This document shows positions 26,601-62,373 of a DNA stretch of 64,000 nt, one piece after another. Made by a program: the position numbers and the translations under genes. The notes under the pieces are model-generated. The model worked only from the letters and a program-made list of their open reading frames with translations. It was not told the origin of the DNA and did no database searches. The stretch's first letter is position 1, and each line of letters opens with the position of its first letter. This DNA comes from Malus domestica (Eukaryota > Streptophyta > Magnoliopsida > Rosales > Rosaceae), in NCBI RefSeq assembly GCF_042453785.1, contig NC_091667.1:35704001-35768000 (forward strand), in the 5' to 3' direction.

Positions 26601-26665
26601 TAAAGAGCATTCCGTGTGTGATTACAATACACATCAAAGAAAAAAAATGAAAGCAATAATATGAG
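23661..26665 (+). mobile_element. Fossil Ty1/Copia LTR retrotransposon, plus-strand piece
   Basis: A long terminal repeat of about 350 bases spans 23796-24145, starting TGTTG and ending TAACA, with a TATA box (ctatataaag) and a primer-site-like tatcagcacg just after it. A partial LTR in the opposite orientation abuts it at 23661-23795. Internally, 24700-25470 resembles a Copia gag region, about 25560-25610 holds a zinc-knuckle-like Cys/His cluster, and about 25960-26400 resembles part of a Copia reverse transcriptase. A partial LTR follows at about 26531-26665. Much of pol is absent. The element is broken, with many breaks, and looks old. Confidence 0.8.
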
Positions 26666-28678
26666 TACATCAAATAGAAATGATTCAATCGAATCACTAC
26701 ACTTCATTCATTCTTTCCACAATGAAGTTTGAGATATCGAGGTGGGTTATGTACAATTGCCCTGATAAATCGCACACTGGATCAAGTACATCCATTGGTT
26801 TAGCCTAGTCAAGGAAATTGGTTTTAACACCCTTCTCCTTGAGGGAGGCTTGATACAAGTCCACCAGATGTTTTGGGGTACGACAAATATGCGTCTAATG
26901 CTCATTGTCACCATACCTATGGCAGACTCCTTCAGAATTTCTAGGAGTGTTATTCATATGAGTTTTAACTTTGTAACGATTTACATTTTTGAAATTCGAA
27001 CCTGAATTATGACTTAGACTTTGGTACTAAAACTGGACACCATGATTATTACCTTTCTCGTTCCACCAGCTTCGTCTATGGCCACGTCGTCGTTTGTAAT
27101 TATTGCCACGAAAGGATGTGATATTCACTTCAAGGGAAGCATCATTCACTTTTAGGAATAACATCGATCCAGTAGGTCGAGATTGATGATTTTTCATCAG
27201 AAGCTCATTGTTTTGTTCAGTCACGAAGAGCATCGATATCAGCTGGTTTACTCAAAAGTCTCGCTCCCTATATTGCTGTTGCAGGAGCACGTTGGAGGCA
27301 TGAAAGGTGCTGAAAGTCTTTTCCAGCATATATTTCTCAGTAATGGTCTCCATGCAAAGCTTCATCTGGGAGCTAATTTTGAACATTGCAAAGTTGTACT
27401 CAGCAACCGACTTGAAATCCTGATATTTAGGTGTGTCCACTCATAACGAGCCCTTGGAAGAATCACTATTTTCTGGTGATTGTATCTATTTCTCAATGCC
27501 TTCCAGAGGGCAAATAGATCTTCAACCGTTAGGTAATCGCTTTTCAATCCTTCATCAAGGTGGGGACAAATAAAGATTATGGTCTTTGCCCGATCTTGAG
27601 AAGATGTACTATATTCCTCCTTGATAGTTTCTTCAAGATTCCCTGCCTCCAGATGAATCTTGGTATCCACTACCCAGGTAAGGTAGTTTTTCCCAGCAAT
27701 ATCCAAGGCAACAAAATAAAACTTTACCAAGTTCGCCATTTTCTTTTCTGAAAGAAAAATGATATGAGAAAGAACTTGCAATAATGTATTATGGAGGAAT
27801 GTAGTGTTAAAACTTCTAGTTCTTACAAATTTTTCATTTTGATCTTCAGTGCAAAATAATAAGCACTCGAAACTTCAGGCTCGAGATTTACATGATTAAT
27901 AAGGAAGCAATTGTACCGCACCGCTCTCATTGAAACAATATAACATCAGGTGGGCGATTATACCGCACCACTGAAGCAGTAGGAAAATTTAAATATGCAG
28001 TGCAAGGTGGACGATTATACTGCACCACCTCAAATTGCAGTAAAATTAAATCTGCAGTTCAAGATGGGCGATTGTACCGCACCATATTTGATCACAGTAA
28101 AATTAACATAAATAAACACTGGGTTAGTAGTCATGAGCTACACCAAACAAGAAATAAAAAATATAAGTAATTGTTATATTGAGAACTAGGAGCAATCATA
28201 GTGCTAGCAGATCTTGGCAAGGGTACATCAAGCAGGTGCGGCAAAGGAGGAAGAAGAACAATAAAATCCTTAGAGGAAGCATTTTTCGGTGAAGGGAGAT
28301 GAGAACTGGTTAAGGTTAGAGAGTCGTGCTGATAACATGTTATAAATAGGCAAAAATTATAAATATAACCTTATCTAAGGACAGAGAGAAGGGATGCAAA
28401 ATATCACACTGTTTAGTTTTGTAATGTTAACACAAAAAAAATTTAGGAAAAAGAGGAATGGATGGATACTGATATTATTGCTTTCACTTCTTTTCTTTGT
28501 TGTGTATTGTAGTCACACATGAAATGCTCTTTATATAGAGCCACATTCGTGACAAACCAAAAGTGCAATGATTGCTCTTTTTTAAAACTTCCCACAACAA
28601 CACATTATCGTTCTTTTGAAAATATTACATAACAACAATTACACTACTATGGGCATTCATTCTCACAATTTTACAACA
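26666..28678 (-). mobile_element. Fossil Ty1/Copia LTR retrotransposon, minus-strand piece
   Basis: An LTR of about 341 bases lies at 28338-28678 in reverse orientation, matching the 23796-24145 LTR in its ends, TATA region and following primer-site-like sequence. Its interior (26690-28330, read on the minus strand) carries the same non-coding leader with repeated phrases and the same gag-type region as the plus-strand piece. The pol part and the second LTR are missing. It belongs to the same family as its neighbour, is broken with several breaks, and is visibly diverged from it, so both are old. Confidence 0.8.
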
Positions 28679-34764: not shown

Positions 34765-34891
34765 TAACTAAAATAATAAATTATGTTTGGCTATGTCCTT
34801 TTGGCCCCTTCGGTTGGAGATGGTTTTTTGTCAAAGGGTTATGTTTGGCCTATGACCTTTTCACCCCTTCGGTTGGAGATGATATAAAATA

Positions 34892-35046
34892 AGGAAAACT
34901 AATGAAAATGACTTGAAAAGTTTGAGTTTTAACGAAAATGAAAAAATAAAGGGTAAAGTGAATAGTATCAAGATTGACTTTTTAGTGTAAAAATGTGGTT
35001 TTTCATTAAAGTAAACAATACCGGAAGCTTTTCGTTAAAGTTTCCT
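34892..35046. repeat. MITE, family B (aaactaatgaaaatgacttg...ttcgttaaagtttcc)
   Basis: About 155 bases, repeated with few differences at 43318-43474 and about 60967-61130. All copies share gactttttagtgtaaaaatg (or close variants) and agcttttcgttaaag. Degraded relatives occur near 15440-15560 and 20200-20250. Confidence 0.8.
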
Positions 35047-35365
35047 ATAAAATATGGCCTAGTATTGTTCATTAAAATATAATTTCTTGCAAAGCTATAG
35101 GGCTAAAAGGAGCCTTTTGGCCCTTCGATTGGAGATGGCCTAACTCTGAAAAATTTACACAGATGTTGCTCTTATCACATTTTTCATACCACAGTTGTAC
35201 CGGCATCCTAATAAAAGTAGAACCCACATGTGTTGGCAGACTTTACATTTTTTCAATACTGTAGTTAAGCATTGCATAAAACTTTAAAATTTTAACAATG
35301 TTTTTTTTTTCTCTAATAAAAGCTTATGAGCATAAGTGCTTACGATTCTTTTGTGTATTCCTCTA

Positions 35366-37943: not shown

Positions 37944-40900
37944 GAGAGACTATGATTAATAAGAGGCCTAAATAGTTAAGCGGAGTAGAAATTAGCTACC
38001 TATTCAAAGAGCTCGGAGCATCTTCACGCCGTTCACTTTCGTATGGCTTTACTGTTTCATTGGCAATCCCTCCAGCATCCTACAATAGCAGTGAATGAAA
38101 TAAGGATAGACTCAAGTACAACCATATAATGATTACTGAAGAGAACCAAAAATCTAAGGCGAAAAGAAACAGCTTAATGGATAGAGAAAGCAACCTTTGA
38201 TGGCTGTGCAATTCCCCCAGTTTGCACATTCTGATACATTTTCATGGGAGGATCATTTCCAGTATGAGCTTCACGAACTGGAAATGTGTTATTCGGAGAT
38301 GGGTCTATTGTGAAAGCACTACCTGCAGGGCCTGGTGCAAAAGCAGGTGGTGGTGTATCCTTTCGAAACAACTCTCTATATAAGTAACTCCGTATTCTTG
38401 ATGTCATCTCAACAAGAGCATGTCGAGCTGCTTTTATTTCCCCTACAATCTGTATATGACAAGCAGGAGATATTCAGAATTGGCTAAATTGTAATTGATC
38501 CTCTCCGCCAGGTAGTCCGAGCCTTTATAACCTCGGGGATTTATTTTTCTTGACCATTTATTTTATTTTAGTGTTAGAAACAGTTCACCTGATAAATGAC
38601 ACTAAAAAATGTAGACGCCACATTCAAACACACACAGATATTGGATAGAAGCAAGCATTCACAAGATATTCTAGGCATTCACAAGATATTCTAGTCAAAC
38701 ATGATAGATTCATAATTGGATATGACCAGACCCTTTATCTCCTCCAGTAAAATTTTCACATATCACGGTTGACGATCACCCTATATCTAACTATATAAGG
38801 CCCGCTTAAAAAGGAGCCAATCATGTGATGTTTCAAAAGTACGAACTCGTCTTTAGTTTGCAAGTCCACTAAGATGGTATTCAGCCGAAAAGGTCGTAAA
38901 AGGTCGTACCCAGTGCACAAGGCTCCCGCTTTACGCAGGGTCTGGGAGAGGTGAATGTCGGCTAGTCTTACCCCCATTTATGGAGAGGCTGCTCCCAATA
39001 AGATGGTATTCAGCCAAACAAACAAAAAAGGTCTGCCAATGAAGCTTCTCAGATAACGAGAAGAAAGGCGCATAACAATAAATCTGGCATTTCCATGAAA
39101 TTAGCAAGTAAAATGACAAACCTGTACAAGTACATCGTCCCCTGATACACACGTGGGAAGATCATCTATGGGAAGAATTTGTATATCTGCACCGGTAAGT
39201 CGCCTCATATCCATTAACAACCCTTCTCTTCCCTCCAACCATCCAATATCACTTGTTGGGACAAGTAGCCTAGTAGTTATAGTGTTCTCTTTGTCTGGAC
39301 TAAGATCGACAATGCGAGTTTGAATATGCAACAAAGCTTCCTGAGCTGGAAACAGCTCGTCATCAGGACCCTATATACGCACATAAAACGGTCAACACCT
39401 TTCCACAAAAAAGATACAACAAAGGAGAGGGCGGGGGAGGATAAGCATGTCAAAAAGCCAACCATTACGATTAACATGTCCAGATTAGTTAGCAGTGTCA
39501 CCAGCAACCAAGAGTGTATCATCACTTCAAATTAACACACAACAGAAGAAAATGCACCCTTACAAGATAAACAATAGAAAATTATGAAGTACCTCCTCAG
39601 AAGAGATTATGATTATCTGTTCATCTTCACCAACCACAGGGTTAGTAGCCTTGACATCCACACCAATTTCATTTTGAAGCAGTTCTATAATTCCGGTTGA
39701 ATCTCCAACTATAAGATAAACTTTGTCAACTGGACAAAGTATTCGAAACACAAGGTCTTCACAAAAGGGCTGTGTATTATCAGCCATGGGAGCAGACCCA
39801 TGTTCAATTGGATAACCCGATGAACGAGGGGCATAGTTGTTGTTTCTGATACTGGGGTTAGATAATCGTGGTCCAAAGGGAGCCCCATCCATGGGTGTCT
39901 TCCGTCCTGCATTGTTCATATGAGGAACATAATCATCATCAGGAGGAAAGAACCGTTCAGGTGAATGCATTCGCCCCTGGAAATGACTGCGATCCCGATG
40001 CTGACTCTCCCTCAAGCGTGATGAAATAATTGCCACAGCACTCTTTACATTATTCGGATCGCCTACTACCTGCAGCAGAAATGCAACATATGCTCAGAGG
40101 CATGCTAACTTAAAAGAGTTGCGTAAAGCCATTCGAGTCTCTTGCTAAAATGCAGCGACTACTAAAATCAATGGTTTACACTAAACAAACTTCAATATAA
40201 CTAAATATCGAAAGAGGTGTTCAAATACGCTCAATGCTCTTCCGTCCAACAAGATGCAACTAAAATCTCAATATTTTTTCACAAAAACACTACCAATTAG
40301 AACTACAGACACCCAAGAAAATTCCATGGACACGAAAATACTCCGTCTTTCAACCTAATTTACTCGTAGTGCGAGTCATTTACTACATCATTAAGCTTCC
40401 AACAATCCAACAATCGTTTTTATGTCCGGTCTGATGGTTTTCGCAGTTTCTAATAAGCTTAACCGGAAACAGAAGTTTCCAAACATCACATTCATTAATA
40501 AAAATGGAATGCAGCTGAAAAGTTCATCAATCCGTGATATGCAACACATGAATCAGAATGCAGGTAAAGCTGTAAGTTCCGAAACCTGAACAATCTCCTC
40601 CGACATCGAAACGCATCGAGGCAGATTATGATCTCTAGGCAACACCCTAATCTGGGTCTTAGTCTCCATCCTCATCTGCTCAATTATCTTCCCTCCCTTC
40701 CCCAGCAAACATCCCACATGCATTCTCGACACAACCAACCGCGTCGCTACTCGATTCCCACCGCCACCGCCGCCGCCTCTAACCCCACCACCATACTCAT
40801 CCTCCTCCTCACCGCCAAACCCAGCAACATCACTCTCCAGAATCCTCTCATGGATCAAAAAAAGAGCCTCCTGAGCCGGCGAGAAGGACGGCATTCGCCC

Positions 40901-43317: not shown

Positions 43318-43474
43318 AGGAAAACTAATGAAAATGACTTGAAAATTTTGATATTTAATGAAAATGATAAAATAAAGGGTGAAATAAATAGTACCAAGAT
43401 TGACTTTTTAGTGTAAAAATGTGGTTTTTCGTCAAAATGAATAGTACCAGGAGCTTTTCGTTAAAGTTCCCTAA
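43318..43474. repeat. MITE, family B, second copy
   Basis: Same ends and core as 34892-35046 (aaaactaatgaaaatgactt, gactttttagtgtaaaaatg, agcttttcgttaaagttccc). Confidence 0.8.
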
Positions 43475-44159
43475 ATTAATTGGCAATATGGAAAATAGTC
43501 TAACCATTTATATGTATATGCAAAGTCTCTCATCTTATCAATACAAGATTCATTCGCAACATGCACTCTAATGTGTGGTGAAATTTCAAGCCTAACACGT
43601 TGTTTGGACCCGATCTTACACTATCGGCCCGAGCAATCGAGAACGTTAAATAAATGGTTTCTAGACCGTTGGATTTCATATTTTTCTAGATATTACTATT
43701 GAATTTTCGTAGTAATTATCTTATGAAATATATTTGTGGAAGCAAAGGAGGTCAATTCCAGTTCGAATATGACTAGTTTGAAAGCGAACGTGGTAGGTTA
43801 TCTCGATAATGATGGTATCTGATGAATACCGAAAGATAAGGACTGGCGATGTGTGTGATCAGATGAGTTTTGAAGATGAAAGAATATTCCTTTTGTTTTT
43901 CTATCTGATCAAAACAACAATTTGCATGCAAATTGAATGTTTGTCAGATAAGATAATAAGGAAAATAATGATGAGAATGAATAGTCAAATGATGATGCGA
44001 TTTCATTGGTGCATGAGTCTCCAGGAAAGCTTTGAAGCTTTAATCACGTGGAAGGCTTTACAGTTCTGAAGTTTTCAACATTATCTTTAAGAAATTGAGA
44101 GATATGATGCAGAACTTGAGATAAAGTTTGAATACAGGATGATGTTCCCTATTGTTAGA

Positions 44160-46589: not shown

Positions 46590-47347
46590 ATACATGTTGT
46601 AATTGTTGATTTTTAATCCCCTTAGTTGATCTTGTTTATCAATAATCTCTGATGTTAAGTAAATTTGTAAGGTGATGATAAGCGATATGAGTCAATTGTT
46701 AATGTAAACTTGCTCGATGGATTATGATGACCTAACGAGTGTTGTGCTATGGTGTTTGTATCAAGTACATGATAGTAGGTGTTCTTATTGGGTTTGTGAC
46801 GCTTAAAAGTGTTCATATTGAGTACTGTTAGCAAATCTCAAAAAAAAAAAAACAAGGCTTAGATGGACCGAGTACACGGTGACAATACCATCTAGGTTCA
46901 TTAAGTGGCTCTCGCAAAAGAGGTTCACTCATGTCACTAAATTATCACGTGACAATCGTTCATTGTACATGTAATAAATTTTTTAACACATAACAAACGT
47001 TTATTGAACAATCACAGTATTGAGATTAAAACCTAGTTCTCTTACAGAATCTCTCCACACCTGCTGACAATATTGAATCTTAGTCAGCATCTTTAGGACC
47101 CCACCTTAAAGTGGGCCACATATGACGTGGCAAACCTGTGGTGAAAGGTCAAAGTGTCAAATGAATGTAAAGGGGTCCCACGTTCCTACCCAATCTGTTA
47201 ATCCAGTTAGAGGTGCAGCTTCATTCACTCTTTATCCTTCACAACAACAATTCCACCTCCACCACCATTCCTCCTAGTTCCGAACTAACTCGTCCCAACT
47301 CACCGACTCAACTCAGTACCAGTAGTGCTACTACTGCTGGTGATAAA
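46590..47347. other. Intergenic and probable TAP38 promoter/leader
   Basis: AT-rich to about 47050, then a less AT-rich stretch. The frame that opens into TAP38 exon 1 stays open upstream of the chosen ATG back to about 47213 but has no in-frame ATG there, so that part is read as leader. Confidence 0.5.
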
Positions 47348-50300
47348 ATGACTTTGACAAGCCCACAGCTGCAGAGGTTCGTCCTAACCAAATACCACGG
47401 CGGCTTATACAAGACTGCCGCCGCAAAAAGCAGCTTTAACATAAGAGCAAGAAGCAGAAGCTGCTCGGCGATTGCCATCGACACGCCGGGTTCTTCCCTT
47501 ACCGACGTTGCTGGAATCCGATGGGGTTCGACTAGTCTGCAGGGTGCCCGGGAGGAGATGGAAGACGCCGTCGTTGTCCGGTCTGAAGGCCTTGATGAGT
47601 TCTCATTTGCCGCCGTTTTTGACGGCCATGCAGGGTTCAACTCGGTCAAGTTCCTCAGGTTGGACCATCACTAATTCCATTTAATTAAAATTTTAATAAT
47701 TGGATTGTGGACATATTTATACTGGTACACAAAAACTAGGCTTAAATGTCAAAATTGTCTCTGTGTTATAGCTATATGGTCAATTTAATCTCCGTGTTTT
47801 CGATTTGGCTAATTTAGTCATCATGTTTATCTCTTTCAATTTTTAGTTTTATTTCATTTTTAAATATTATAAATCAAATAAATAATTTTATAAATAAGTT
47901 TATAATAGTTTATAATTTTTTTTTTTATATAGAAATTAGATGGAAATGTCCTTAATTGGTTAACGGAAATAAACACAAGATCAAATTGGCCAAATTGAAA
48001 ACATAGGGACTAAATTAACCCAATGACTAAAACGCATGGACCATTTTAATATTTAAGCCCAAAAACTAAGCTAAGTCGATGTCTTTAATTTTGCTTGACG
48101 TTGTTGAGATTCAAAGGGCGAGAGATAAAATACTTAGACTCGACGATTATATGTGACACATATACTAGTCTGAGAAAATTAGACTTGCACACTTTGCGTT
48201 TTGTTAGGTATTGCCAATTTTTGTAGTAAGGATTAAAATGGTTTTTTGTAACAGAGATGAGCTCTACAAGGAGTGTTGTGCGGCTTTGCAGGGTGGGCTG
48301 CTACTACGTGGAAACGACTTCAAGGCCATTAGAGAGGCATTGCTGGAGACGTTCGAAAAAGTTGACTCTAAATTGTTAAATTGGTAAGTTGGTTTGGACT
48401 GTTTGGTAGGAAGGACTTAAGCTCGTAAGCACTTATGTTAGAAGTGTTTTTATTATAAACATGTATAACTTATAGAAGTCTTTATGCCAAACGAAAGAAG
48501 CGCCTTTGGTTATCAGAAAACACTTTTAGTTATTCCAGAAGTCGTACCAAAAGAACCCTTAAATTCATTTTGGTCTAATTTGCATCAAATGTGTAAACCA
48601 TGTTGCCTCAAATATGTTTTGTATACATGTATATAATTGGGTTGAAGGTTTAGATGGTGTTTGATTGTGTAAAGGCTCGAAAGCAATGGGGAGAAAGACG
48701 AATCTGGTTCGACAGCTACCCTTATGTTCGTTGGAAACGATACGCTGGTTATTTCACATGTTGGTGATTCTTGTGTGGTATGTACCTCGTTTCAGCATTT
48801 GTATTTCACGCAGAACTTCATTTGTCAAATACCGGAAAGTGATACGAATGTAGGAATGTTAAGGTTGCTGCATTTATCAGCTGACTGGCTGGTGCAGGTT
48901 CAATCTTGTTCTGGAAAGGCAGAGGTTCTTACGCATCCTCATAGACCGTACGGGAGCAACAAGGCTTCTCTTCAAGAAATCAAAAGAATCAGAGAAGAAG
49001 GTGGATGGGTGTGTTTTTCTATTCTTTGTTTATGATTGTGAGATTTCTTCTGTATAAAATATAAGACATTGATAATCTATAGCTTGGATGTTATGACAAC
49101 TTGCATATGGCGTCTACAGATCAGCAATGGAAGAATTTGTGGCGACATTGCTGTTTCTCGTGCGTTTGGTGACATGCGGTTCAAGACAAAGAAAAACGAG
49201 TAGAGTCTCTTAACTTTCTGCTCATCTTTCCAAAACATACAGATCACTTATTATCAGCTTTTTCATGGGAGCTTTGGCATATAGATAATCAAATATGCAT
49301 ATACTGATGGCTTTGTGCATTTTATAATGGAAAGGATGCTGAAAAAAGGAGTTGAAGAAAGGAGATGGACAGAAAAATTTGCTTCTCGGTAGGTCATCCT
49401 TATGTTCTTGACGATCAGTTTCATCTATATTGTTTGCTCCTTGTAGTTTAGGACGCTTTTGTATCGGTTCACTGCTAGCCAGTATGTTGTAGAACGCTTT
49501 CAAAAGCATTTACTTTGTGCACTAATGTAGAGTAGCGGAGTAAGTAGCGTAAATTAGATGGTTCTTTCTCTGTATTTTAGAATGTCGTTGTGCCTATCTA
49601 AGAATACTTCGATTCAAACTCCTTTTATGTTACGCCAGAGTACAATTCAACGGAGACCTAGTTACTGCATCTCCAGACGTTTTTCAAGTAACTTTCGGGA
49701 CAGATTCAGAATTTGTTCTGTTAGCATCAGATGGCTTATGGGACTACATAAACAGGTCTGTTGGACTTAACACTCTTAGTAAACGAATGCCATGTTTTCT
49801 CATGAAATTGATCGCTCACGTAAAATTTGGTCACTCTTTCAGCTCAGATGCGGTGACTTTTGTAAGGAATCAGCTTCGAAAACACGGAGACGTTCAGGTT
49901 TAGCTACTGCCTTCATTTAAATGCGTCAATCTGCTTTAACGATGTAATAAAAATGGCGATCTAGTGCTTAACTACACCGCCTGTTTTTTCCTATCTTTTT
50001 TTTTCAGCTAGCTTGCGACGCGCTTGCTGAAGCTGCTCTGGTAACAAATTAAATAGAGTATTTGTTTTACTCTACACACATTAGTTAAATCGTTTTCTTC
50101 GGTAGTTAGTTATCTAATGACCTGATATTTTCACATATCGAACAGGATCAACGCTCGCAAGATAACATCAGCATTGTTATTGCAGATTTAGGGTATGTAT
50201 CTGTCAGTTCTGCAATCTGGCTTTTCACCTTCCTTGTTAATTTTCCGAGTTGTCTGATCTAGTTTTTGGTTCATCCGCAGGCGGACAGACTGGCAAGGTT

Positions 50301-50407
50301 TGCCATTTCAACAACAAAATGTTGTATATGAATTCGGCCAAGCTTTTGCTACGGTTGGGATTGTGTCGCTTGGAATTTGGATCTCAACATCCTTGCTTTC
50401 GACATGA
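47348..50407 (+). CDS. TAP38: TAP38/PPH1: thylakoid PP2C phosphatase for LHCII
   Basis: Eleven exons: 47348-47658, 48255-48383, 48675-48777, 48898-49008, 49120-49199, 49335-49388, 49639-49755, 49843-49897, 50008-50040, 50146-50192, 50281-50407; 1167 nt, 388 residues, the length I recall for Arabidopsis TAP38/PPH1 (At4g27800). PP2C metal-site motifs: EEMED (69-73), FDGHAG (91-96), [22 protein letters not shown] and QDNIS. The N-terminus (to about 50) is Ser/Arg/Ala-rich, as in a chloroplast transit peptide. The C-terminus has a hydrophobic segment ([18 protein letters not shown]), the thylakoid anchor. The enzyme removes phosphate from LHCII, opposing STN7 kinase, and drives the return to state 1. 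Exon 6 adds only 54 nt. A palindromic MITE sits in intron 1. Its last two exons were copied downstream. Confidence 0.95.
47732..48075. repeat. Palindromic MITE in TAP38 intron 1
   Basis: Left ttaaatgtcaaaattgtctc and right tggaccattttaatatttaa are inverted; inner pairs include ttggctaatttagtc and aaattggccaaatt. The centre is very AT-rich. Confidence 0.65.
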
Positions 50408-51585
50408 ACGTGAGACATCCCGGAGTCCCAAGAATCTCTATAACGGAATGATGGAAATCATCAACATGGATTTTCACACGTTACGTTTGTAAAATCTGAA
50501 TTGTACGTGCCTCACACCTTGATACCTTTGGATGTAGGTCTCAGTAGTAAATAAGAACTCACGTGATCGATGATTTAGCTGGATTGCTAGTTTTGTGATT
50601 GACATTTCTTGCAAATTCAAAATATATGTACATGCATAAACCCTTCACATATCATTCTTCAAGACAACAACCATCGAACACAAGGCCAGAAAGTAAAATT
50701 GCTTCTGAATGTTGTTCGAGAGTTCACCGCCGAAAATTATGAAAAGTTACGGCAGAACACCGCCGAACCTCACCATAATTTAATACAATTTTCATCGGTG
50801 TTCTTAACTTTTTACACTTCTCGTACATATTGGGGGTAGGCACCCAATGTCCAACAGTGTAGAACAGTTGGCCGAGTGGATTGAAGAGGAAATGGACTGT
50901 CGGAAGATAAAAGAACGTAGTGGGAATTTGCAGATTTTGTGCCATAGCTTCGATTTGGACCCATGTTACATTTCTGGAAAGGGAACGACGCCGCAGTTCC
51001 TACACTCCATTCTGCTGTGATATAAGATGGATTTTAGATGTCCGAGACCGTTTCAGCCTCCAAAATTATGTTTTAATTTCTGTAACAAAAATCAAACCTT
51101 CGATTTCCGTCCGACTAATGTTGTTTGCTTTTGTTCTTAATTACCTTGCTACAGGGAGTTGTAATTTGTTTATTTAAGCCATTAGCTGCTTCATTGTAAT
51201 CATCCATTCAATTTTTAATAAAAAATAAAAAAACCCTTTCGGAATTCTCTCATATTACTGCGGATTTAAACTTTAGTTCTTCTCGGATTTACGTTTATAA
51301 TCATTTTGCTTTATGCCGTGTCACCTAACCACAGCATAGCAAAAGTACTTATTTTACACCTCATACATGTAAGACGATCGATTAGCAGCGATGTATATAG
51401 CCACAGGAAATATATGATACAAAGATATATGTATTCCTATGGCCACACAAACACACACAAAATAGTTTATACATACATACATACATATGTATGTATGTAT
51501 GTATCGATGAAGAAACTCGTTCGGATTGCTATATTAGGTCTGCTTATACGTGATCAAAACCTCGGATTGCTATATTAAGGCAGTC
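50408..51585. other. TAP38 downstream region and microsatellite
   Basis: TAP38 3' UTR probably lies within the first few hundred bases. A (CATA)n / (TATG)n tract at 51470-51506 forms an inverted pair (acatacatac...gtatgtatgt). No gene is visible. The equivalent segment in unit 2 is 54622-55829, where the tract has expanded (about 55655-55745). Confidence 0.6.
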
Positions 51586-52139
51586 TCATGGGTTCCTGCC
51601 AATGCCAGGTCTCCTAGGGTCGTGCCTATGGTTGTATCTTGCATCGTCGTAGTCCTGCATTGTTGCAGCGAGCCTCCGAAGCTTCCTCGAAATGATTTCG
51701 ACGCCATTCTGCAAAACATGCAGAATTTGCTGTTAGCAAGATAAATTAAGCATGATTTGGCAAATTAATGTAATTTATGTCCCATTAGTTTATCATGGGA
51801 ACTTGTAGAACAAACAATAGTAGATATTCTACCTTGTGAAGCAAGTTAATGGGATCCATGCCGTCCTTGAAGCCCTTAGTAACAATGCCTACAAAGAGTA
51901 CTTATGTCAGCTTACTAGGCTAACCTAAACATTTATATGCAAATAGAAATGGGAGTTAAATTAAGCACCTGAGTTCGTATTCCCCTCCTGACAGTTTAGA
52001 TTACTTTAAGGTGAAATATCATTTGTATCAACAAAACTAAGTACGCTGCAATATGCTCACCTGAAGATAAAGGAGTTATGAGAAGTGCTGAGAGGTAAAG
52101 CACTTGTAGAAGAAGAAACCCATTGATTCTAAAAGCCAT
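51586..52139 (-). CDS. PSY-like secreted peptide precursor, copy 1
   Basis: Three short exons (minus): 52061-52139, 51833-51888, 51586-51708; 258 nt, 85 residues, phases agree. Exon 1 encodes MAFRINGFLLLQVLYLSALL, a signal peptide. Exon 2 encodes a spacer (GIVTKGFKDGMDPINLLHK). Exon 3 encodes a basic stretch (SRKLRRL) followed by MQDYDDARYNHRHDP and an Arg/Gly/Pro tail (about 64-85). The Asp-Tyr start (Tyr65, the sulfation site in this family) and the HDP end define the PSY peptide consensus (DYxDPxxNxxHDP). Such precursors are secreted, Tyr-sulfated, trimmed and sensed by LRR receptor kinases to balance growth and stress. Compared with copy 2, the centre of the mature peptide has changed (ARYNHR for TGSNPR). 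Intron 1 carries a SINE-like sequence. A GA-rich run lies upstream, near 52262-52280. Confidence 0.85.
51955..52045. repeat. SINE-like copy in PSY copy 1, intron 1
   Basis: Contains cctgagttcgtattcccctc (B-box-like) and tttagattactttaaggtga, matching the copies at 20080-20180 and 56200-56280. The 5' part differs from the unit 2 copy. Confidence 0.55.
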
Positions 52140-54264
52140 AGCTTATTTTCTTCTTCTCCCCTCAGTTAGTTAAAATGGTGATGAATCTTAGCAAGGAGAG
52201 GTGAGAGAGGATGGGCTTTTATGCTCATTTGGCGTCGGTTGGGGAGTGAGTGGAAGCATATACGCTATGAGAGAGAGAGAGATGTTGGTAATTCAACTGT
52301 GTGCAGTTCTTCTCCACCATCCAATAACAACAGAAAAAAAAAAAAAAAACCATCACAAGCCAATAAGGCTCCACACTTTACGAGGGTTGGGAGGGGAGGG
52401 AGGAGAGGAAGAACATCTATTGTACGCAGTCTTACCTTACTTTACAAAGAAACTGTTTTCATGATTGAACCCGTGGCCTTCGGTCACAATAAAACAACCG
52501 TTTTATTGCGCCAAAACTCTTCCTCCCAACAGCAACAGATTGATGATCAAATATTGGTGTAGGGTTTTAGCTGGCTAGCCCACAACACATAAGTCAACTG
52601 CACCATTTCTTTCTTGCTATTTCCCTTCTTTTGTCATCTTCTTTCTTATGCATGTGGACACGAGCAAACAATATTCTTACATTGCATGGCTCGAATTCCA
52701 GCCATTTTCTGCCTACTTTTTGGGTTTTTATCACTTTTTAATACATCAATATGCTTCCCTTTTTCCTGTGTTCACTATTATATTATCTACCGACACTGCA
52801 TAGTACATATATAGTGAGAGGAGAGTAGTAAGGCCATTTTATTTAGATATGCTCCCATATTTTCAATGGTTGCCATATGTACATTCCAAGTGCATGCCCA
52901 TTGTTTCAGTAAAATTTAATGAACTAAGTAGATTTGTCTGGCTCGTGATCTGCAGAGAATTTGTGTGAATCATGACATGAGATGAATACTGCAAAAACCC
53001 TAGACTTTTCTCTTCCTAAAATACAAATTTAGGTAGGACGCCATGATTACGTGGCTGATTAGGTTAGCTACTTTCATAAAGGTATATAGGTCTTCTGTAT
53101 GTGTGTATCATCCGACTCTAGTTTGATGGAGTCTTTTCTTGGAAAAGTATCTAATCAGTAACGTGATCAAGCTGTCCTACTGAAGTCTTTCTTCTCTAAA
53201 GAGATACAAAAAAGTATTGACATCCTTTTATTTAGTATTGACATCATTTTATTTGATAAGGTCAATTACGTTCCCTCATCTATAAGTGAATTTCGTAATG
53301 GAACCTTGCTTTTTAAGACATCATTTTCTATAGGACTTTCCAAACCCTTTCTTTCTCATGGGTTTCATTTTCCGTGGTACCAAAGATATCAAACACCATG
53401 AGTGAAATGTGGTTAATTTAGGTCCTCATATACTTTCTGGTTAGCCAATGGATGAAGACAAGCAAACATAGACCTAGAGTGGACTACATGTACATGAAAA
53501 TCCAATGTGAAGAAAGAAGAGGGTAGGAGGGTTGAACTTGAATATGTTGGTGACGCATCGTCACTAATGGAAGGGAGAGCACTAACATCATAGTGTGAGG
53601 GGAACGAGTCAAAATTTTTGAACTACTACCAACACCAACATAGTCCAATATCATATAATCCAACAAATTAAACTCCAATAATTTTAAGACAACAAACAAA
53701 AGTTTCACTCATCTGCCGAGAGAGTTTATGTTGGTAATGATGGTGGTTGCGGGATGGTGATCCACAAATTAAGCTCCGCATTTGGCAACGGTTCTAGGTT
53801 GTCAGGGAACAATACTATATTGAAAATGGTTTTGTGTTTGCAGGGTCTTAGCATAATCCCTCAGCTTGTATCTTTTTCGTTTACTTTCATTTGTTATTAA
53901 TAAATTTGGTGGAGGAGGGTCAGGAGTGGGGTTTCAAGCTGTAATATCACCCCTTTGAGGAAAAGTAGGTGTTTCTCACACGACTATTGCCGAAGAACTA
54001 ATCTTGCCTAATCTTTTTCCATTTTGAAATCAAACAATAAAAAATCATGCAACAAGAACGCCCATGATTATATCACAAGTGTGGAAGTTAAAACGCATGT
54101 TAATTAGCACATTATTAACTTAAAATATATCTCGTGTAGGTAAATATCTCTCATTTACCAAGAATGACTTCCATGCAACAGAGTGGGAATGAAAGTAGAA
54201 AATCCAATTTGAAGTCAAGCAAGAAGATTTTAGTCCATAGTCCATATAGCATGGATGAGAGAGA
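52140..54264. other. Non-coding part of duplication unit 1
   Basis: Upstream region of PSY copy 1 (probably its promoter and leader, with a GA run near 52262-52280) followed by AT-rich DNA. No gene is supported; the corresponding unit 2 sequence (56384-58515) shows no conserved open frame either. Confidence 0.6.
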
Positions 54265-54360
54265 AGCATAGAGTATTTGTTTTACTCTACACACATTAGT
54301 TAAATCGTTTGCTTCGGTAGTTAGTTATCCAGTGACCTGACATTTGCACATATCGAACAG

Positions 54361-54621
54361 GATCAACGCTCGCAAGATAACATCAGCAATGTTATTGCAG
54401 ATTTAGGGTATGTATCTGTCAGCTCTGCAATCTGGCTCTCACCTTCCCCGTTAATTTTCGGGGTTTTCTGATCTAGTTTTTTATTCATCCGCAGGTCGAC
54501 AGACTGGCAAGGTTTGCCATTTCAACAACAAAATGTTGTATATGAATTCGGCCAAGCTTTTGCTACGGTTGGGATTGTGTCGCTCGGAATTTGGATCTCG
54601 ACATCTTTGCTTTCGACATGA
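54361..54621 (+). pseudogene. Orphan copy of the last two TAP38 exons
   Basis: 54361-54407 and 54495-54621 copy TAP38 exons 10 and 11, including the intron and the C-terminal hydrophobic segment. Substitutions alter residues (a conserved Ile becomes Asn in the QDNIS region, and Arg becomes Ser at the start of exon 11). Exons 1-9 are absent because the duplication breakpoint falls in intron 9, so no phosphatase can be made from it. Confidence 0.9.
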
Positions 54622-55654
54622 ACGTGAGACATCCCGGAGTCCCAAGAACGTATATAACGGAATCATGGAAATCATCAACATGGATTTTCACACGTTACGT
54701 TTGTATAATCTGAATTGTACATGCCTCACACCTTGATACTTTTGGATGCAGGTCTCAGTAGTAAATAAGAACTCACATGATCGATGATTTAGTTAGATTG
54801 CTAGTTTTGTGATTGACATTTCTTGAAATTTCAAAATAAATGTACATGCCTAAACCCTTCGCATATCATCCTTCAAGAAAACAACCATCGAACGCAAGGC
54901 CAGAAAGTAAAATTGCTTCTGAATGTTGTTCGGGAGTTCACGGCCCAAAATTGTGAAAAGTTATGGGAGAACACAGCCGAACCTCACCATAGTTTAATAC
55001 AATTTTCAGCGGTGTTCTGCCGTAACTTTTTACACTTCTCTTACACATTGGGGCGCCTCTATTGGGGTATGCACCCTATGCCCACCCCTGTAAAAAAGCT
55101 GGCCGAGTGAATTGGAGATGAAGTGGACTGTTGGAAGAGAAAAGGACGTAGCAGAAATTTGCAGATTTGGTGTCACAGCTCCGATTTGGATATAAGATGG
55201 ATTTTAGCTATCCGAGGCTATTTCAGCCTCCAAAGCTGTGTTTTAATTTCTGTAGTAAAAATCGGACATTTCGATTTCCGTCCGATAATGTCGTTGGTTT
55301 TTGTTTTAATTACCTAAGCCCTTTGAGTTGTCCCAAGGAGTTGTAATCTGTTTATTTAAGCCATTGGGGCTGCTTCATTATAATCATCAATTTAATCTGT
55401 AATAAAGAAAAACCTTTCAGAATTTCTCTCAAACAACTGGTGGATTCCAAACTCTGATTCTTCAAGGATTTATGTTTGTAATCATTTTGCTTCGTGCCGC
55501 GTCACCTAACCAAAGCAATAGCAAGAGTATATATTTTACACTCTCATACATAAAGACGATCGATTAGCAGCAATGTCTATAGCCACAGGAAGAAGAATAT
55601 GGTACAAAGATATTTGTATTCCTATGTCCACAAACACACAAACTAGTTTATACA

Positions 55655-55745
55655 GACATACGTACATACATACATACAATGCATTCTTACATACGTGCAT
55701 ACGTGCATTCATACATACATACATACATATACATACATACATATG
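55655..55745. repeat. (CATA)n/(CATG)n microsatellite
   Basis: An expanded, interrupted tract with units such as cata and cgta, equivalent to 51470-51506 in unit 1 but longer. Confidence 0.85.
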
Positions 55746-55829
55746 TATCGATGAAGAACCTCGTTCGGATTCCTATATTAGGTCTGCTTATACGTGACCA
55801 AAACCTCGGATTGCTATATTACGGCAGTC

Positions 55830-56383
55830 TCATGGGTTCCTGCCATTGCCGGTCCTCTTTCTAGGGTCGTGCCTAGGGTTGGATCCTGTATCGTCGTAGT
55901 CCTGCATTGTTGCATGGAGCCTCCGAAGCTTCCTCGAAATGATTTCGACGTCATTCTTCAAAAACATACAGAATTTGCTGTTAGCAAGATAAATTAAGCA
56001 TGATTTGTAAAATTCATGTTAATTTATATCCCATTAGTTTATGATAAAAACTACTAGAACAAACAATAGCAGATATTCTACCTTGTGAAACAAATTAATG
56101 GGATCCATGCCATCCTTGAAGCCTTCAGTAACAATGCCTACAAAGAGTACTTATGTCAGTTTACTAAGCTCCCCTAAGGGATTTAACGTAGAACAGATGT
56201 ACTCCTCTATGCCCCTGAGTTTGAATTCCCCTCCCAACAATTTAGATTAGTTTAAGGTAACATATCGCTTGTACACAAAACTAAGTACGCTGCAATACGC
56301 TCACCTGAAGATAAGGGAATTATGAGAAGTGCTGAGAGGTATAGCACTTGTAGAAGAAGAAACCCATTGATTCTAAAAGCCAT
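55830..56383 (-). CDS. PSY-like secreted peptide precursor, copy 2
   Basis: Three exons (minus): 56305-56383, 56082-56137, 55830-55955; 261 nt, 86 residues. The exon sizes and phases equal copy 1 apart from one extra codon in exon 3. The signal peptide is nearly identical (one Thr to Ile change). The putative mature region reads MQDYDDTGSNPRHDPRKRTG and ends GNGRNP, closer to the PSY consensus (small residue, then Asn-Pro, then His-Asp-Pro) than copy 1. The basic SRKLRRL stretch just before it is conserved and may be a processing site. The acceptor before exon 3 is gaag rather than the gcag of copy 1, which is a little weaker but usable. Intact signal peptide, spacing and reading frame in both copies argue that both are, or recently were, under selection. 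Confidence 0.88.
56195..56280. repeat. SINE-like copy in PSY copy 2, intron 1
   Basis: Has cctgagtttgaattcccctc and atttagattagtttaaggta, the same family as the copies near 20100 and 52000. Confidence 0.55.
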
Positions 56384-58515
56384 TGCTTATTTTCTTCTTC
56401 TTTTGTTTCTCTTCTTCTCCTCTCAATAAGTTAAAATGGTGATGAATCTTAGCAAGGGGAGGTGAGAGAGGGTGGGCTTTTATGCTCATTTTGAGTCAGA
56501 GTTGGGGAGTGAGTGGAAGCATATACGCTATGAGAGAGAGAGAGATGTTGGTAATTCAACTGTGTGCACTTCTCCTTCTCCACCATCCAATAGCAACAGA
56601 ATATAAAATAAATAAATAAAAGGCGATCACAAGCAAACAAGGCTTCATATTTTACGAAGATTGGGGACGGAAGGGGGGACCTTACTTTGCAAAAATGATG
56701 TTTCCACGATAGAACCTGTGACCTTTCTATCACATAAAAACAACAGTTCCATTAATGTGCCAAAAACGCGATCTCCCAACAGGAACAGACTGATGATCAA
56801 ATATTGGCGTAGGGTTTTAGCTAGCTAGCCCACAACACATAAGTCAACTGCACTACTATTTCTTTCTTGCTATTTCCTTTCTTTTGTCATCTTCTTTCTT
56901 AAGCATATGGACACAAGAGCAAACAATATTCTTTGCATTGCATGGCTCAAATTCTAGCCATTTTCTGCCTACTTTTTGAGTTTTTATCACTCTTTAATAT
57001 GTTAATTTGCTTCCTTCTTTTCCTGTCTTCACTATTATATTATCTGCCGACACTGACACATATATATATATATTGCATATATAGTGAGAGGAGAGCAGTC
57101 GAGGCTATTTTATTAAGATATGCTCCTATTGTTTCAATGGTTGCCATATGTACTTTCCAATTGCATGTCCATTGTTCCAGTAAAAATAATAAACTAAGTA
57201 GAATTGTCTGGCTCATGGTCTGCAGAGAAATTGTGTGATGAATAACGCAAAAATTCTAGACTTTTCTTTTTTAAAATTATAAATTTCGGTAGGGCACTAT
57301 GATCACATGGCTGATTAGGTTAGCTATTTTCATAAAGGTACAGGTCTTTCGTACATATGTACCATCCAACTCTAGTTTGATTTAACTCCCAAAAGTATAG
57401 AGTCTTATTTTGTAAGAGTATCTGATCAGTAACGTGATCAGACAATTCTATTGAAGTCTTTATTCTCTAAAGAGATACAGAAAAGTATTGACATCCTTTT
57501 ATTTGAGAAGGTCAATTACGTTCCTCATCTGTAAGTGAATTTCGTAATGGAACTTTGCTTTTTAAGACATCATTTTCTATAGGACTTTCCAAACCCTTTC
57601 TTTCTCATGGGTTTCATTTTCCGTGGTACCAAAGAAACCAAACACCATGAGTGAAGTGTGGTTAATTTAGGTCCTCATATACTTTCTGGTTAGTCAATGG
57701 ATGAAGACAAGCAGACATAGACCTAGAGTGGAGTACAACATGAAAATCCAATGGGAAGAAAGAAGAGGGTAGGAGGGTTGAACTTTAATATGTTGGTGAT
57801 CCACTAGTGGGAGGGAGAGCACTAACATCATAGTGTGAGGGGAACAAGTCAAAATTTTTGCAGTACCACCAACATCAACATGGTCCAATATTATATAATC
57901 CAACAAATTAAACCATTTAAGACAACAAAGAAAAGTTTCACTAATTAATCATCTCCCAAGAGAGTTTATGTTGGTATTGATGCTGTTTGCAGGCTGGTGA
58001 TTCACAAATTAAACTCCGTATTTGGCACGGTTCTAGGTTGTCGGGGAAAAATACTATATAAAAATGGTTTAGTTTTTGCGGGTCTTAGCATAATCCCTCA
58101 ACTTGTATCTTTTTCGTTTACTTTCATTTATTATCAATAAATTTGGTGGAGGAGGGTCGACTGTGGGGTTTTTGGGTGTAATGGTCCTCACGCCTTCGAA
58201 GGAGAGTAAGTGTCTCGCAAGTGATCATTGCCGAAAAACTAATCTCGCGTAATCTTTTTCCATTTGGAAAACAAACAAAAAAAAAGTCATGCAACAAGAA
58301 CGCTCATGGTCATATCAAGTGCGGAAGTAAAAACGCATGTTAATTAGCACATATTGACTTAAAATATATCATTCTCAGTTGAATATCTCTTGTGTAAGTA
58401 AATACTCTCATTTACCAAGAAGGACTTCCATGCGACAGAATGGGAATGGAAGTAGGAAATAGATTTTGAAGTCAAGCAAGAAGATTTTAGTCCATAGTCC
58501 ATAGCATGGATGAGA
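56384..58515. other. Non-coding part of duplication unit 2
   Basis: The counterpart of 52140-54264: upstream region of PSY copy 2, with a short gagagagagagag run near 56532, a TATA-rich run at 57061-57076 and otherwise AT-rich DNA. No conserved coding frame. Confidence 0.6.
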
Positions 58516-59371
58516 GAGAAGTCTAGTGCTTTCTCTACAGAATTTGGTGTCACCACATGACTGCTTGAACGGAAAGTGGTATTTTCTATTCATTTTGGAT
58601 TGCTTATTGTCATATGATGTCATGCCCTTTGTACCATTTTTTATTAGGGACAAGGATTGTCTGTCCTCCTTGTTCACGTGCTCTCCTATTTTGTGTGGTC
58701 ACGGTTAAGCCACGTCAATATTTTATATTGTTTTTTTTATAGAGATAATAAGACAAAAATGAATAGTAATATAAAATATTGACGTGGCTTATCCATGACC
58801 ACACAAACATGAGGGCATGGGAGGACATAGGAATAAGGAGGGCAGATAATCATTGTCCTTTTTTAGGACTCGTTTAGTATGGAAGATTGAATTGAAAATG
58901 ATAACTTTATAATATCAAAGCATATCAAAGACTAAAGTGAGTGATTTGGATTCTGGGATGGACACAAAAAAAACTCACCTTCTAATCTATCATTTTGGAG
59001 AGGATATCAAAATGTATAAGTTTACTTTACACGTAATTTATGTTCCACCCTTTAGTTGCATATAATTTTTTTTCATTTCTACATACCTTGAAATTAAAGA
59101 GTTACCTATTCCTATTCGATCTTCTGTACAAAAGAGACCGTGCTATTTAATAACATCAAATCCACTTCTTTTGATTTTGGTTGTATGAGAACTCGGTCAC
59201 GACTCACGACTGACCTCACATGGTGTGGCGAGGGGATACCAGTACCAGAGTATGTAAAAGTGATTGTATTGTATTGTTGCCAGTCATATCTCAAAAGCTC
59301 ACACCACTTTCTTTGAAATTTTGAATAGCCTTCAAAGTTGAAAGTTGAAAACCTGCCTTTTTTTTTTGGAG

Positions 59372-60440
59372 GCATATTGTTAGCCCTCCTGTTTGGGTGC
59401 TTTTTCCATCATCTTCTATTTTGTACGGTCACGGTTAAGCCATGTCAACATTTTATATTGATTTTTTTATAGAGATAATAAGACAAAAAGCAATAAGAAT
59501 ATAAAATGTTGACGTAGCTTAACCGTGATCGCACAAATAAGAAGGGATGGGAAGGGCACCCAAACAGGAGGGCTGACAATCTGCCTCATTTTCTTTTTGC
59601 ATTTGGAAACTTACATGAATTAATTTCACGTTTACTTATTTGGAACGAGGAGAGATGAATCGAAAAAGTACAAGAATTGAGAATGGAATCCATAAAAAAA
59701 CTAGCCTCCCTAATCGATCTGATTCTTGAACTTTCAAATACGTACCGTAAACATAGAAAAACCAAAAATCAAAATCATTTTAATTCTCATTTTATGTAAA
59801 GTTTGTTTAAAATTTAGGGTTTAGGGTTTAGCCCATCCCCTTCTATTTGTGCGATTACGGTTAAGCTATGTCAACATTTTATATTCTTATTGCTTTTTGT
59901 CTTATTATCTTTATAAAAAAAATCAATATAAAATGTTGTCGTAGCTTAACCGTGATCGCACAAATAAGAAGGGATAGGAATGACACCCAAACAGGAGGGC
60001 TGACAATCTGCCTCATTTTCTTTTTGTATTTGGAAACTTACATGAATTAATTTCACGTTTACTTATTTGGAACGAGGAGAGATGAATCGAAAAAGTACAA
60101 GAATTGAGAATGGAATCCATAAACAAACTAGCCTCCCTAATCGATCTGATTCTTGAACTTTCAAATACATACCGTAAACATAGAAAAACCAAAAATCAAA
60201 ATCATTTTAATTCTCATTTTATGTAAAGTTTGTTTAAAATTTAGGGTTTAGGGTTTAGCCCATCCCCTTCTATTTGTGCGATTACGGTTAAGCTATGTCA
60301 ACATTTTATATTCTTATTGCTTTTTGTCTTATTATCTCTATAAAAAAAATCAATATAAAATGTTGACGTAGCTTAAAATTGACCGCACAAAATAGGAAGG
60401 GATAGGAATGGCACCCACACAGAAGGGCAGTCAGTCTGCC
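59372..60440. repeat. Tandem 426-base units with MITE ends and telomere-like runs
   Basis: The phrase gctgacaatctgcctcattt near 59570 recurs near 59998, and the following roughly 250 bases are nearly identical. Each unit contains a palindromic MITE (tcaacattttatatt ... aatataaaatgttg) and ends in tttagggtttagggtttag (about 59814 and 60240), the plant telomere motif in a short interstitial run. Confidence 0.8.
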
Positions 60441-60966
60441 TCCAAAAGAAAATGGCAGGTTTTCAACTTTCAACTTTGAAGGCTATTCAAAATTTCAAAG
60501 AAGGTGGTGTGAGCTTTTGTGATATGACTGCCACCAATACAATACAATCACTTTTACATACTCAGCATCGTTTATGGCAGTGGTACCGGTATCCCCCCGC
60601 CACACCATGTGAGGTCAGTCGTGACCGAGTCCTCATACAACCAAAACCAAAAGAAGTGGATTTGATGTTATTAAATTGAACGGTCTCGTTTGTACGTAAG
60701 ATCGAATCAGAATGGATAACTCTTTAATTTCAAAGTATGTAGAAATGAAAAATGAAAAAAATTATGTGCAACTAAAGGATGGAACATAAATTATGTGTAA
60801 AGTAAACTTATACATTTCGATATCCTCACCAAAATGATAAATTAGAAGGCGAGAGTTTTTTTTGTGTCCATCCCAGCATCCAAATCACTCACTTTAGTCG
60901 TTAATATGCTTTGATATTATAAAGTTATCATTTTCAATTCAATCTTTCATACTAAACGAGTCCTTA

Positions 60967-61130
60967 AAAAAAATGAAAACTAATGAAAAATGTTTGAAAA
61001 CTTTGAAGGTTAACAATAAGGACAAAATAAAGGGTAAAGTGAATAGTACTATAATTGATTTTTTAGTGTAAAAATGTGGTTTTTCGTTAAAATGAACAGT
61101 ACCGAGAACTTTTCGTGAAAGCTCGCTAAA
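60967..61130. repeat. MITE, family B, third copy
   Basis: Shares aaaactaatgaaaa, agggtaaagtgaatagta, tttttagtgtaaaaatgtgg and aacttttcgtgaaag with 34892-35046. Confidence 0.75.
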
Positions 61131-61283
61131 AAAAATGGTACAAAGGGCATGACATCATATGACAATAAGCAATCCAAAATGAATAGAAGATACCACTTTC
61201 TGTTTAAGCAGTCGTGGTGACAACAAATCCTGTGGAGAAAGCACTAGAATTCTCTCTCATCCATGCTATCGACTATGGACTAA

Positions 61284-62373
61284 ACGATTATCAGCACTCA
61301 AAAAAAGTCATCATAACGTCCAAGCTTAAATAATTCAATCAAACTATATATAGCTTATGCATCAAATTCTGGAAAATGACCAGTTATAAACAACACATGA
61401 CCTGAGGCCGATAAGCAAATACAATGCCTCTCCCAAACTTCCCAACAAAATAATCCTCGCTATGGCATCACAATTCGCGGCGTTTAATCGTAAAAAACTT
61501 CGAAAACGCGGACATGACCCGAAAAAAATACGATTACATGTTCCCCAAGCAAAAGAAGAAGAAAAATATCGTCTGTCTTTCAAAAAGCGACGTAACAATG
61601 ATTTAACGAATGCATATGGTATGCGACATATAGCTAACTTGACCTTCTAGCAATGATCAATATGAAAATGAATGATGCAATGCAGGATTTGTGTTTCCAC
61701 GAGTTCATGGTGACGCTCAAACCTTGGGCGAACCGGAGGTAGTTTCGCTTGCTAAGGAAATACTCTGGAATATGAACTAAGACAAGCAAAAATATGATGA
61801 GATGCAAACAAGATAACCGAAGGGGATGGAATTCAGGAATGAAGACCTGCTATGGAGGATTTCAGGAATACGGCACTTGGGTTAGTGATAAGGCGCCAGC
61901 ACCCGAATAAAATTGGGCAATTTTCGTCCATTCTGACCCCAATCTCGTTGGAGGAAATCATCAGGGGTGGTGGTATGGATTAACAAGATCTTGTTTGGCG
62001 TTCGGAGCGCAATTCACCTCAGTGACACAGAAATATGGCCTTCATGAATGTCACTTACCTTCCCCTCCGATGTCACATAATCTGTGATCCACAGAATTTT
62101 GTTAGTTTTGATTGCAGGCCTTAACCCACTTCTGCGACACTCACTACCCCAACTCTTCCTCCTTGACAAAACCAGGACCCAAGCCCTCGGCGCTGATGCA
62201 ATTGTTAGTCACAACTTTTGGAGATGATGCAAGTTAGTGACAACTTGAAGATGGACAGCTTCGGTTGTCTGAAAATGGCGATGCTTGACACATGCAATCC
62301 TATGACCCGACTCAAACACACCCAAATGCATGTGGGGACTTCCAAACAAATAGAATATACAGTGGCAATAGCT
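61284..62373. other. Intergenic and importin beta 3' region
   Basis: A 62-residue basic open frame (61462-61650, plus) has an unusual codon flavour (MASQFAAFNRKKLRKRGHD) but no family I recognise and no flanking exon signals, so it is not called as a gene. The last few hundred bases before 62374 probably hold the importin beta 3' UTR. Confidence 0.5.

Follow-up and report, generated by a model that had tools for sequence, protein, structure and literature searches.

A tandem pair of predicted PSY5-type sulfated peptide hormone genes in apple

Two short, intron-split genes predicted side by side in apple (Malus domestica) raise the question of whether a peptide hormone gene of the PSY family has been duplicated in tandem, and whether both copies can still make a hormone. 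They lie on the minus strand at 51586-56383 of a 64,000-nucleotide stretch of contig NC_091667.1 (assembly GCF_042453785.1, forward-strand positions 35,704,001 to 35,768,000), hereafter the window, in whose coordinates all positions are given. We call the upstream gene copy U (56383-55830) and the downstream one copy D (52139-51586). That both are PSY-type by descent appears nearly certain, and it is probable, judging from their sequences, that a PSY5-type gene gave rise to the two as tandem paralogues, each of which can make a hormone. The family, the subtype and the introns of PSY genes are already known, and the pair adds to them.

Both gene models are predictions. An earlier reading of the window, the original prediction, had proposed a tandem pair of minus-strand genes with exons of 79, 56 and 123/126 nucleotides (nt), each encoding a signal peptide, a spacer, a basic SRKLRRL stretch and a C-terminal DYDD...HDP motif. 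Its coordinates, exons, frames and splice sites were recovered exactly, and in both copies a signal-like N-terminal segment precedes the spacer, SRKLRRL and the C-terminal motif. In copy U, exon 1 (56383-56305, 79 nt) carries the start codon and the signal-like segment MAFRINGFLLLQVLYLSALLIIPLSS; exon 2 (56137-56082, 56 nt), flanked by GT-AG introns, encodes the spacer GIVTEGFKDGMDPINLFHK, the first G of which is split across the intron; and exon 3 (55955-55830, 126 nt) holds SRKLRRL, the PSY motif DYDDTGSNPRHDP, the tail RKRTGNGRNP and the stop codon. Copy D is built alike, with the start codon and signal-like segment in exon 1 (52139-52061, 79 nt), the spacer GIVTKGFKDGMDPINLLHK, its first G again split across the intron, in exon 2 (51888-51833, 56 nt), and SRKLRRL, the PSY motif DYDDARYNHRHDP, the tail RRPGIGRNP and the stop codon in exon 3 (51708-51586, 123 nt). 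The introns measure 167 and 126 nt in copy U and 172 and 124 nt in copy D, interrupt the frame in phases 1 and 0, and all four run from GT to AG. The resulting open frames predict proteins of 86 residues for copy U (MAFRINGFLLLQVLYLSALLIIPLSSGIVTEGFKDGMDPINLFHKNDVEIISRKLRRLHATMQDYDDTGSNPRHDPRKRTGNGRNP) and 85 for copy D (MAFRINGFLLLQVLYLSALLITPLSSGIVTKGFKDGMDPINLLHKNGVEIISRKLRRLAATMQDYDDARYNHRHDPRRPGIGRNP).

The N-terminus has an Arg at position 4, a hydrophobic run from residue 7 to 24 and then PLSSG, with a 15-residue mean hydropathy of up to 2.29 (copy U). SRKLRRL is identical in the two copies and contains, upstream of the core, RKLR and RRLx, which are RXLX motifs of the SBT6.1 type. The 13-residue PSY cores, located by pattern match and profile score, are encoded at 55863-55901 in copy U and 51616-51654 in copy D, both on the minus strand; in each, Asp precedes the core Tyr, and the core begins at residue 64, as befits a short precursor with a near-C-terminal core. 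In both copies, retention of intron 1, retention of intron 2 or skipping of exon 2 yielded no motif, so that the proposed splicing is the one form, of those tried, that produces it. By eye, CTAAC is seen close to the acceptor in intron 2 of both copies, and the TATA-like sequence ATAAAAGCCC 100 nt (U) or 83 nt (D) 5' of the ATG; sequences of both kinds generally serve as gene signals. An ATGT/GTAT microsatellite, whose length differs between the copies, lies some 70-100 nt past each stop codon (51464-51518 and about 55650-55750).

Do the cores belong to the PSY family? Translated in six frames, the window has DY-x5-N-x2-H-x-P at exactly two sites, the cores of copies U and D, and none was seen in 200 random windows generated by an order-2 Markov model of the window. 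A third PSY core, sought in the window by pattern and by profile, was not found. Both copies have D, Y, N, H and P in register, the five residues reported to be conserved, in 31 of 32 published PSY sequences (PMC7913133). Of the consensus put forward in the original prediction, DYxDPxxNxxHDP, these five residues are thus present, whereas position 5 is T or A instead of P.

A PSY profile of 13 columns was built from 18 published peptides, nine from Arabidopsis (PMC11534595), six from soybean (PMC9369194) and three from wheat (PMC11641228), with GmXAP5a/b counted once. Left out of the profiles were GmXAP2, whose 13-mer is that of GmXAP1, GmXAP3, which is a CIF homologue, and TaPSY7, because its DY-to-N spacing is two residues shorter than in copies U and D. 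Copy U scored 36.6 bits and copy D 27.1 bits, within the range of 23.1-42.3 bits obtained when each of the 18 members was left out in turn, and the third-best of the 62,974 stop-free 13-mers in the window reached 4.5 bits. Copy D is near the low end of the family, with only two of the 18 members scoring lower when left out (GmXSP4, 23.1, and GmXAP1, 26.4). When the eleven residues that follow DY were shuffled 20,000 times, no shuffle of either copy scored as high as the real sequence. A motif that does not align with PSY profiles was one of two outcomes named in the original prediction as refuting it; in both copies the motif does align.

The genes could instead belong to another DY-type sulfated family, RGF/GLV/CLEL or CIF/TWS1, with which they have the DY start and the precursor layout in common, SBT6.1 sites being known in RGF6 as well (PMC7913133). 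However, an RGF profile (made without RGF4, GLV8, GLV9 and CLE18) gave -1.3 bits for copy U and 1.3 for copy D, and a CIF profile 0.1 and -4.7 bits; on these scores, membership of either family was rejected. Both copies also lack the HN/NN ending of RGFs and the C-terminal pattern of CIFs, as listed in PMC11534595. We hold such an origin to be very improbable, and the PSY-type identity originally proposed holds for both copies against the published PSY, RGF and CIF peptides.

The nearest of 32 published PSY, RGF and CIF peptides is Arabidopsis PSY5 (AT5G53486, DYDDAGPNPKHDPRRRPGGKG, PMC11534595), which is identical to copy U at 10 of 13 core positions and to copy D at nine, the latter tied with AtPSY2. 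AtPSY5 has the DYDD start common to both copies and, as in these, a basic tail containing Gly after HDPR. Relative to this tail, copy U has Thr for Pro, while copy D keeps the Pro and is one residue shorter before it. The AtPSY5 precursor is short too, at 104 residues versus 86 and 85, and the layout and length of both apple precursors fit those of Arabidopsis PSY precursors, listed at 71-104 residues (PMC11534595). The apple genes differ from PSY5 in being two tandem copies. Soybean GmXAP5a/b (DYDEAGPNPRHTKKPGKG), seen with a sulfated Tyr in soybean xylem sap (PMC9369194), resembles both copies in its DYD start, N at position 8, R at 10, H at 11 and basic, Gly-containing tail, with core identities of 8/13 to copy U and 7/13 to copy D; the DP that follows H in both of these is absent from it. 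Finally, the end of wheat TaPSY7 (DYGGANSRHDPRRRPGRNG, PMC11641228), RHDPRRRPGRNG, is like the tails of copies U and D.

The two genes lie within a tandem duplication of about 4.2 kb. Its low unit (50053-54266, 4214 bp) spans copy D together with the 3' end of a PP2C gene, and its high unit (54268-58521, 4254 bp) spans copy U together with an orphan PP2C 3' exon; the units are 88.9% identical over 4046 aligned positions. As they stem from one duplication, copies U and D are no independent evidence for each other, and the matching exon sizes advanced in the original prediction, which do agree, likewise add no independent support. What does support the genes independently is their substitution pattern and their match to published PSY peptides. 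A segment some 1.1-1.4 kb upstream of copy U (57522-57771) is 96.4% identical between the units, above their 88.9% average, by constraint, gene conversion or chance.

Identity between the copies is 0.962, 0.911 and 0.926 in exons 1 to 3, and 0.849 and 0.895 in the introns. The net difference in coding length is one codon, and gaps occupy 21 and 2 columns of the two intron alignments. A comparison of 85 codons counts 8 synonymous and 12 nonsynonymous changes (dS 0.151, dN 0.064, ratio 0.42, where dS and dN are the synonymous and nonsynonymous divergence). Nonsynonymous changes, at 12 of 196 sites, are rarer than changes in the introns, at 37 of 283 (p 0.014 in a single, unadjusted Fisher test), a pattern that suggests constraint at the protein level after the duplication. 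By part, dN/dS is 0.35 for the first 63 codons and 0.16 for the nine tail codons.

Several observations nevertheless weigh against the reading that both copies are functional PSY5-type hormone genes. Neither precursor matched a family in Pfam-A up to an E-value of 10, and a PDB sequence search made with copy U returned just two hits (E 0.44 and 1.3), although neither library need hold such a family. Together with the shortness of the proteins and the non-independence of the copies, this is also what one would see if the open frames had arisen by chance in duplicated non-coding DNA. Such frames would not be expected to score 27.1 and 36.6 bits when the next-best 13-mer of the window reaches 4.5, to carry a motif absent from all the random windows, or to change less at nonsynonymous sites than in introns, and we find this explanation scarcely credible. 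The relatives are peptides printed in papers, so the comparison with them covers the core and the tail. Within the core, copy U differs from AtPSY5 by T at 5, S at 7 and R for K at 10, and copy D by R at 6, Y at 7, H at 9 and R for K at 10. The strict motif DYXXXX[AP]NXXHXP, used for a scan in 2021 (PMC7913133), is matched by neither copy, position 7 being S in one and Y in the other; we take it as a search pattern and not as a definition, since AtPSY9, with D at position 8, fails it too (PMC11534595). The core has accumulated four nonsynonymous and no synonymous changes. The overall ratio of 0.42 averages both copies and is compatible with the decay of one of them. Lastly, the acceptor of intron 2 (55955-55956) reads AAG in copy U versus CAG in copy D. 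AAG is a weaker type of acceptor than CAG, and the splicing efficiency of copy U may be lowered by it.

Some of these points would fit a different history, in which both genes are PSY5-type by descent and only one works, the other decaying: copy U through its intron-2 acceptor, or copy D through its core, which resembles AtPSY5 less than that of copy U does and scores 27.1 bits versus 36.6. The absence of synonymous changes from the core adds to this case. Yet neither frame is broken by a stop or frameshift, the coding sequences differ in net length by a whole codon, the five conserved residues are present in both copies, and the score of copy D falls inside the range of published members. The decay of one copy and the function of both exclude each other; we judge the former unlikely and retain the reading that both copies can make the hormone.

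Do the two cores still act alike? The question is raised by their differences, which affect 4 of 13 residues in the core versus 5 in the first 63. All four are at core positions 5, 6, 7 and 9, outside D, Y, N, H and P. The nonsynonymous rate is higher in the core than in the prepro part, though not significantly (Fisher p 0.085), and for this reason we do not claim positive selection on the core. It is mildly surprising, without reaching statistical significance, that the differences between the copies seem to concentrate in the hormone itself; the PSY domain has been described as more strongly conserved than the remainder of the precursor (PMC7913133). Judged against AtPSY5 and GmXAP5, the change at position 5 appears, tentatively, to have occurred in copy U and those at 6 and 9 in copy D, a polarisation that uses printed peptides only (PMC9369194, PMC11534595). 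At position 7, both reference peptides have P, copy U has S and copy D has Y. It is tempting to speculate that the copies are diverging into two ligands, selection having held the parts needed for secretion and processing and changed core positions 5, 6, 7 and 9 and the tail. We regard this as quite doubtful; if it were true, the two peptides would differ in receptor preference or potency.

Most likely, both genes yield secreted, Tyr-sulfated ligands of PSYR receptors, their splicing, expression, secretion and sulfation all being inferred. The precursor would enter the secretory route through its N-terminal signal, and TPST would sulfate the Tyr of DY. A subtilase of the SBT6.1 type would cut at RKLR/RRLx, the DY end would be trimmed and the peptide exported. 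Outside the cell, it would bind leucine-rich repeat receptor kinases of the PSYR type, silencing default stress signalling and permitting growth. As for the precedents, RXLX motifs for SBT6.1 have been reported in RGF6 and in PSY1-5 (of PSY1-8), their use in PSYs being itself a proposal (PMC7913133). According to a review (PMC10519359) of a 2022 Science study, mass spectrometry identified mature PSY5, PSY6 and PSY8; PSY5 and PSY6 show direct interaction with PSYR1-3, and PSY5 rescues root growth of tpst-1. The duplication would have raised gene dose, with the four non-conserved core positions and the tail changing later while the conserved residues stayed fixed.

The original prediction stated that the pair looks unannotated and that genes so small and so split would escape ordinary gene finding. 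Neither view is supported: PSY genes of Arabidopsis, soybean, wheat and tobacco are listed with gene identifiers or map positions, and those of tobacco (PMC12153210) and wheat (PMC11641228) include genes with introns. Apparent tandem PSY pairs are known as well, namely AtPSY7/AtPSY9 (AT3G49305/AT3G49300, PMC11534595) and the soybean genes Glyma.19G117800/Glyma.19G117900 (PMC9369194); these are of other PSY subtypes, and their adjacency is read solely from neighbouring locus numbers. The wheat study, by contrast, found no tandem PSY pairs in that species (PMC11641228). Literature searches, made without reference to the species, showed no description of this pair among the matches listed. Copy U was also run against bacterial and archaeal genomes; the 343 pattern matches included no confirmed relative, which is what one expects of a plant gene. 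The PSY family thereby gains a tandem pair with two natural variants of a PSY5-type core; otherwise the finding is one of ordinary annotation.

Convergent with the PSY genes is a PP2C gene on the plus strand (approximately 47171-50200). Among solved structures, its best match is Protein phosphatase 2C 57 (PDB 4yzg, phmmer E 6.5e-16); two further open stretches match Pfam PP2C, and the C-terminal exon was read by eye. An identification of this neighbour with At5g53140 was dropped in view of that best match. The low edge of the duplication falls just after an exon of this gene, and the unit therefore carries the C-terminal exon along. The second copy of the C-terminal exon, an orphan also recognised by eye, lies on the plus strand within the repeat (approximately 54330-54400), between the two PSY genes and apart from the rest of the PP2C gene, with its frame still open; it could enter read-through transcripts or confuse gene models. 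The joint between the units, at 54267, has by eye essentially no sequence common to both edges, and we infer that simple end joining is as likely an origin as unequal crossing over.

A comparison with gene numbers around Arabidopsis PSY5 may lend weak support to PSY5 orthology. The window contains open stretches with KH and TPR matches, some of them below Pfam cut-offs, in a gene order that differs from that of Arabidopsis. At about 39-41 kb, one strong match is to KH_1 (E 2e-21, two stretches) and two more fall just below the Pfam cut-off; a fourth open stretch (38174-38473) has no Pfam match. TPR stretches are found at 22.5-22.8 kb (TPR_12, E 1.6e-9) and at 29.5-29.9 kb (below the cut-off), and two further open stretches tried near there gave no Pfam match. 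In Arabidopsis, At5g53060, which has five KH domains (PMC4436139), and At5g53080, a TPR protein (PMC5854136), are numbered near PSY5 (At5g53486).

The high edge of the duplication coincides with a nest of repeats, inverted and direct, that spans 2.8 kb (58486-61284) and is foldback or similar to a miniature inverted-repeat transposable element. Its outer arms (58486-58650 and 61123-61284) are inverted and 92.7% alike, and its inner arms (58859-59551 and 60259-60970), also inverted, 87.3%. A dispersed repeat of about 170 bp within it (60967-61138) is found again at 34886-35057, 43320-43483 and 15422-15584, with 77-81% identity. Further off, fragments of a Copia-like retroelement extend over 24690-27874. 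Its part at 27362-27874 has no Pfam match; weak zinc-knuckle matches are present at 25531-25800, and an RVT_2 domain is recognised at 26059-26289 (E 7.6e-15).

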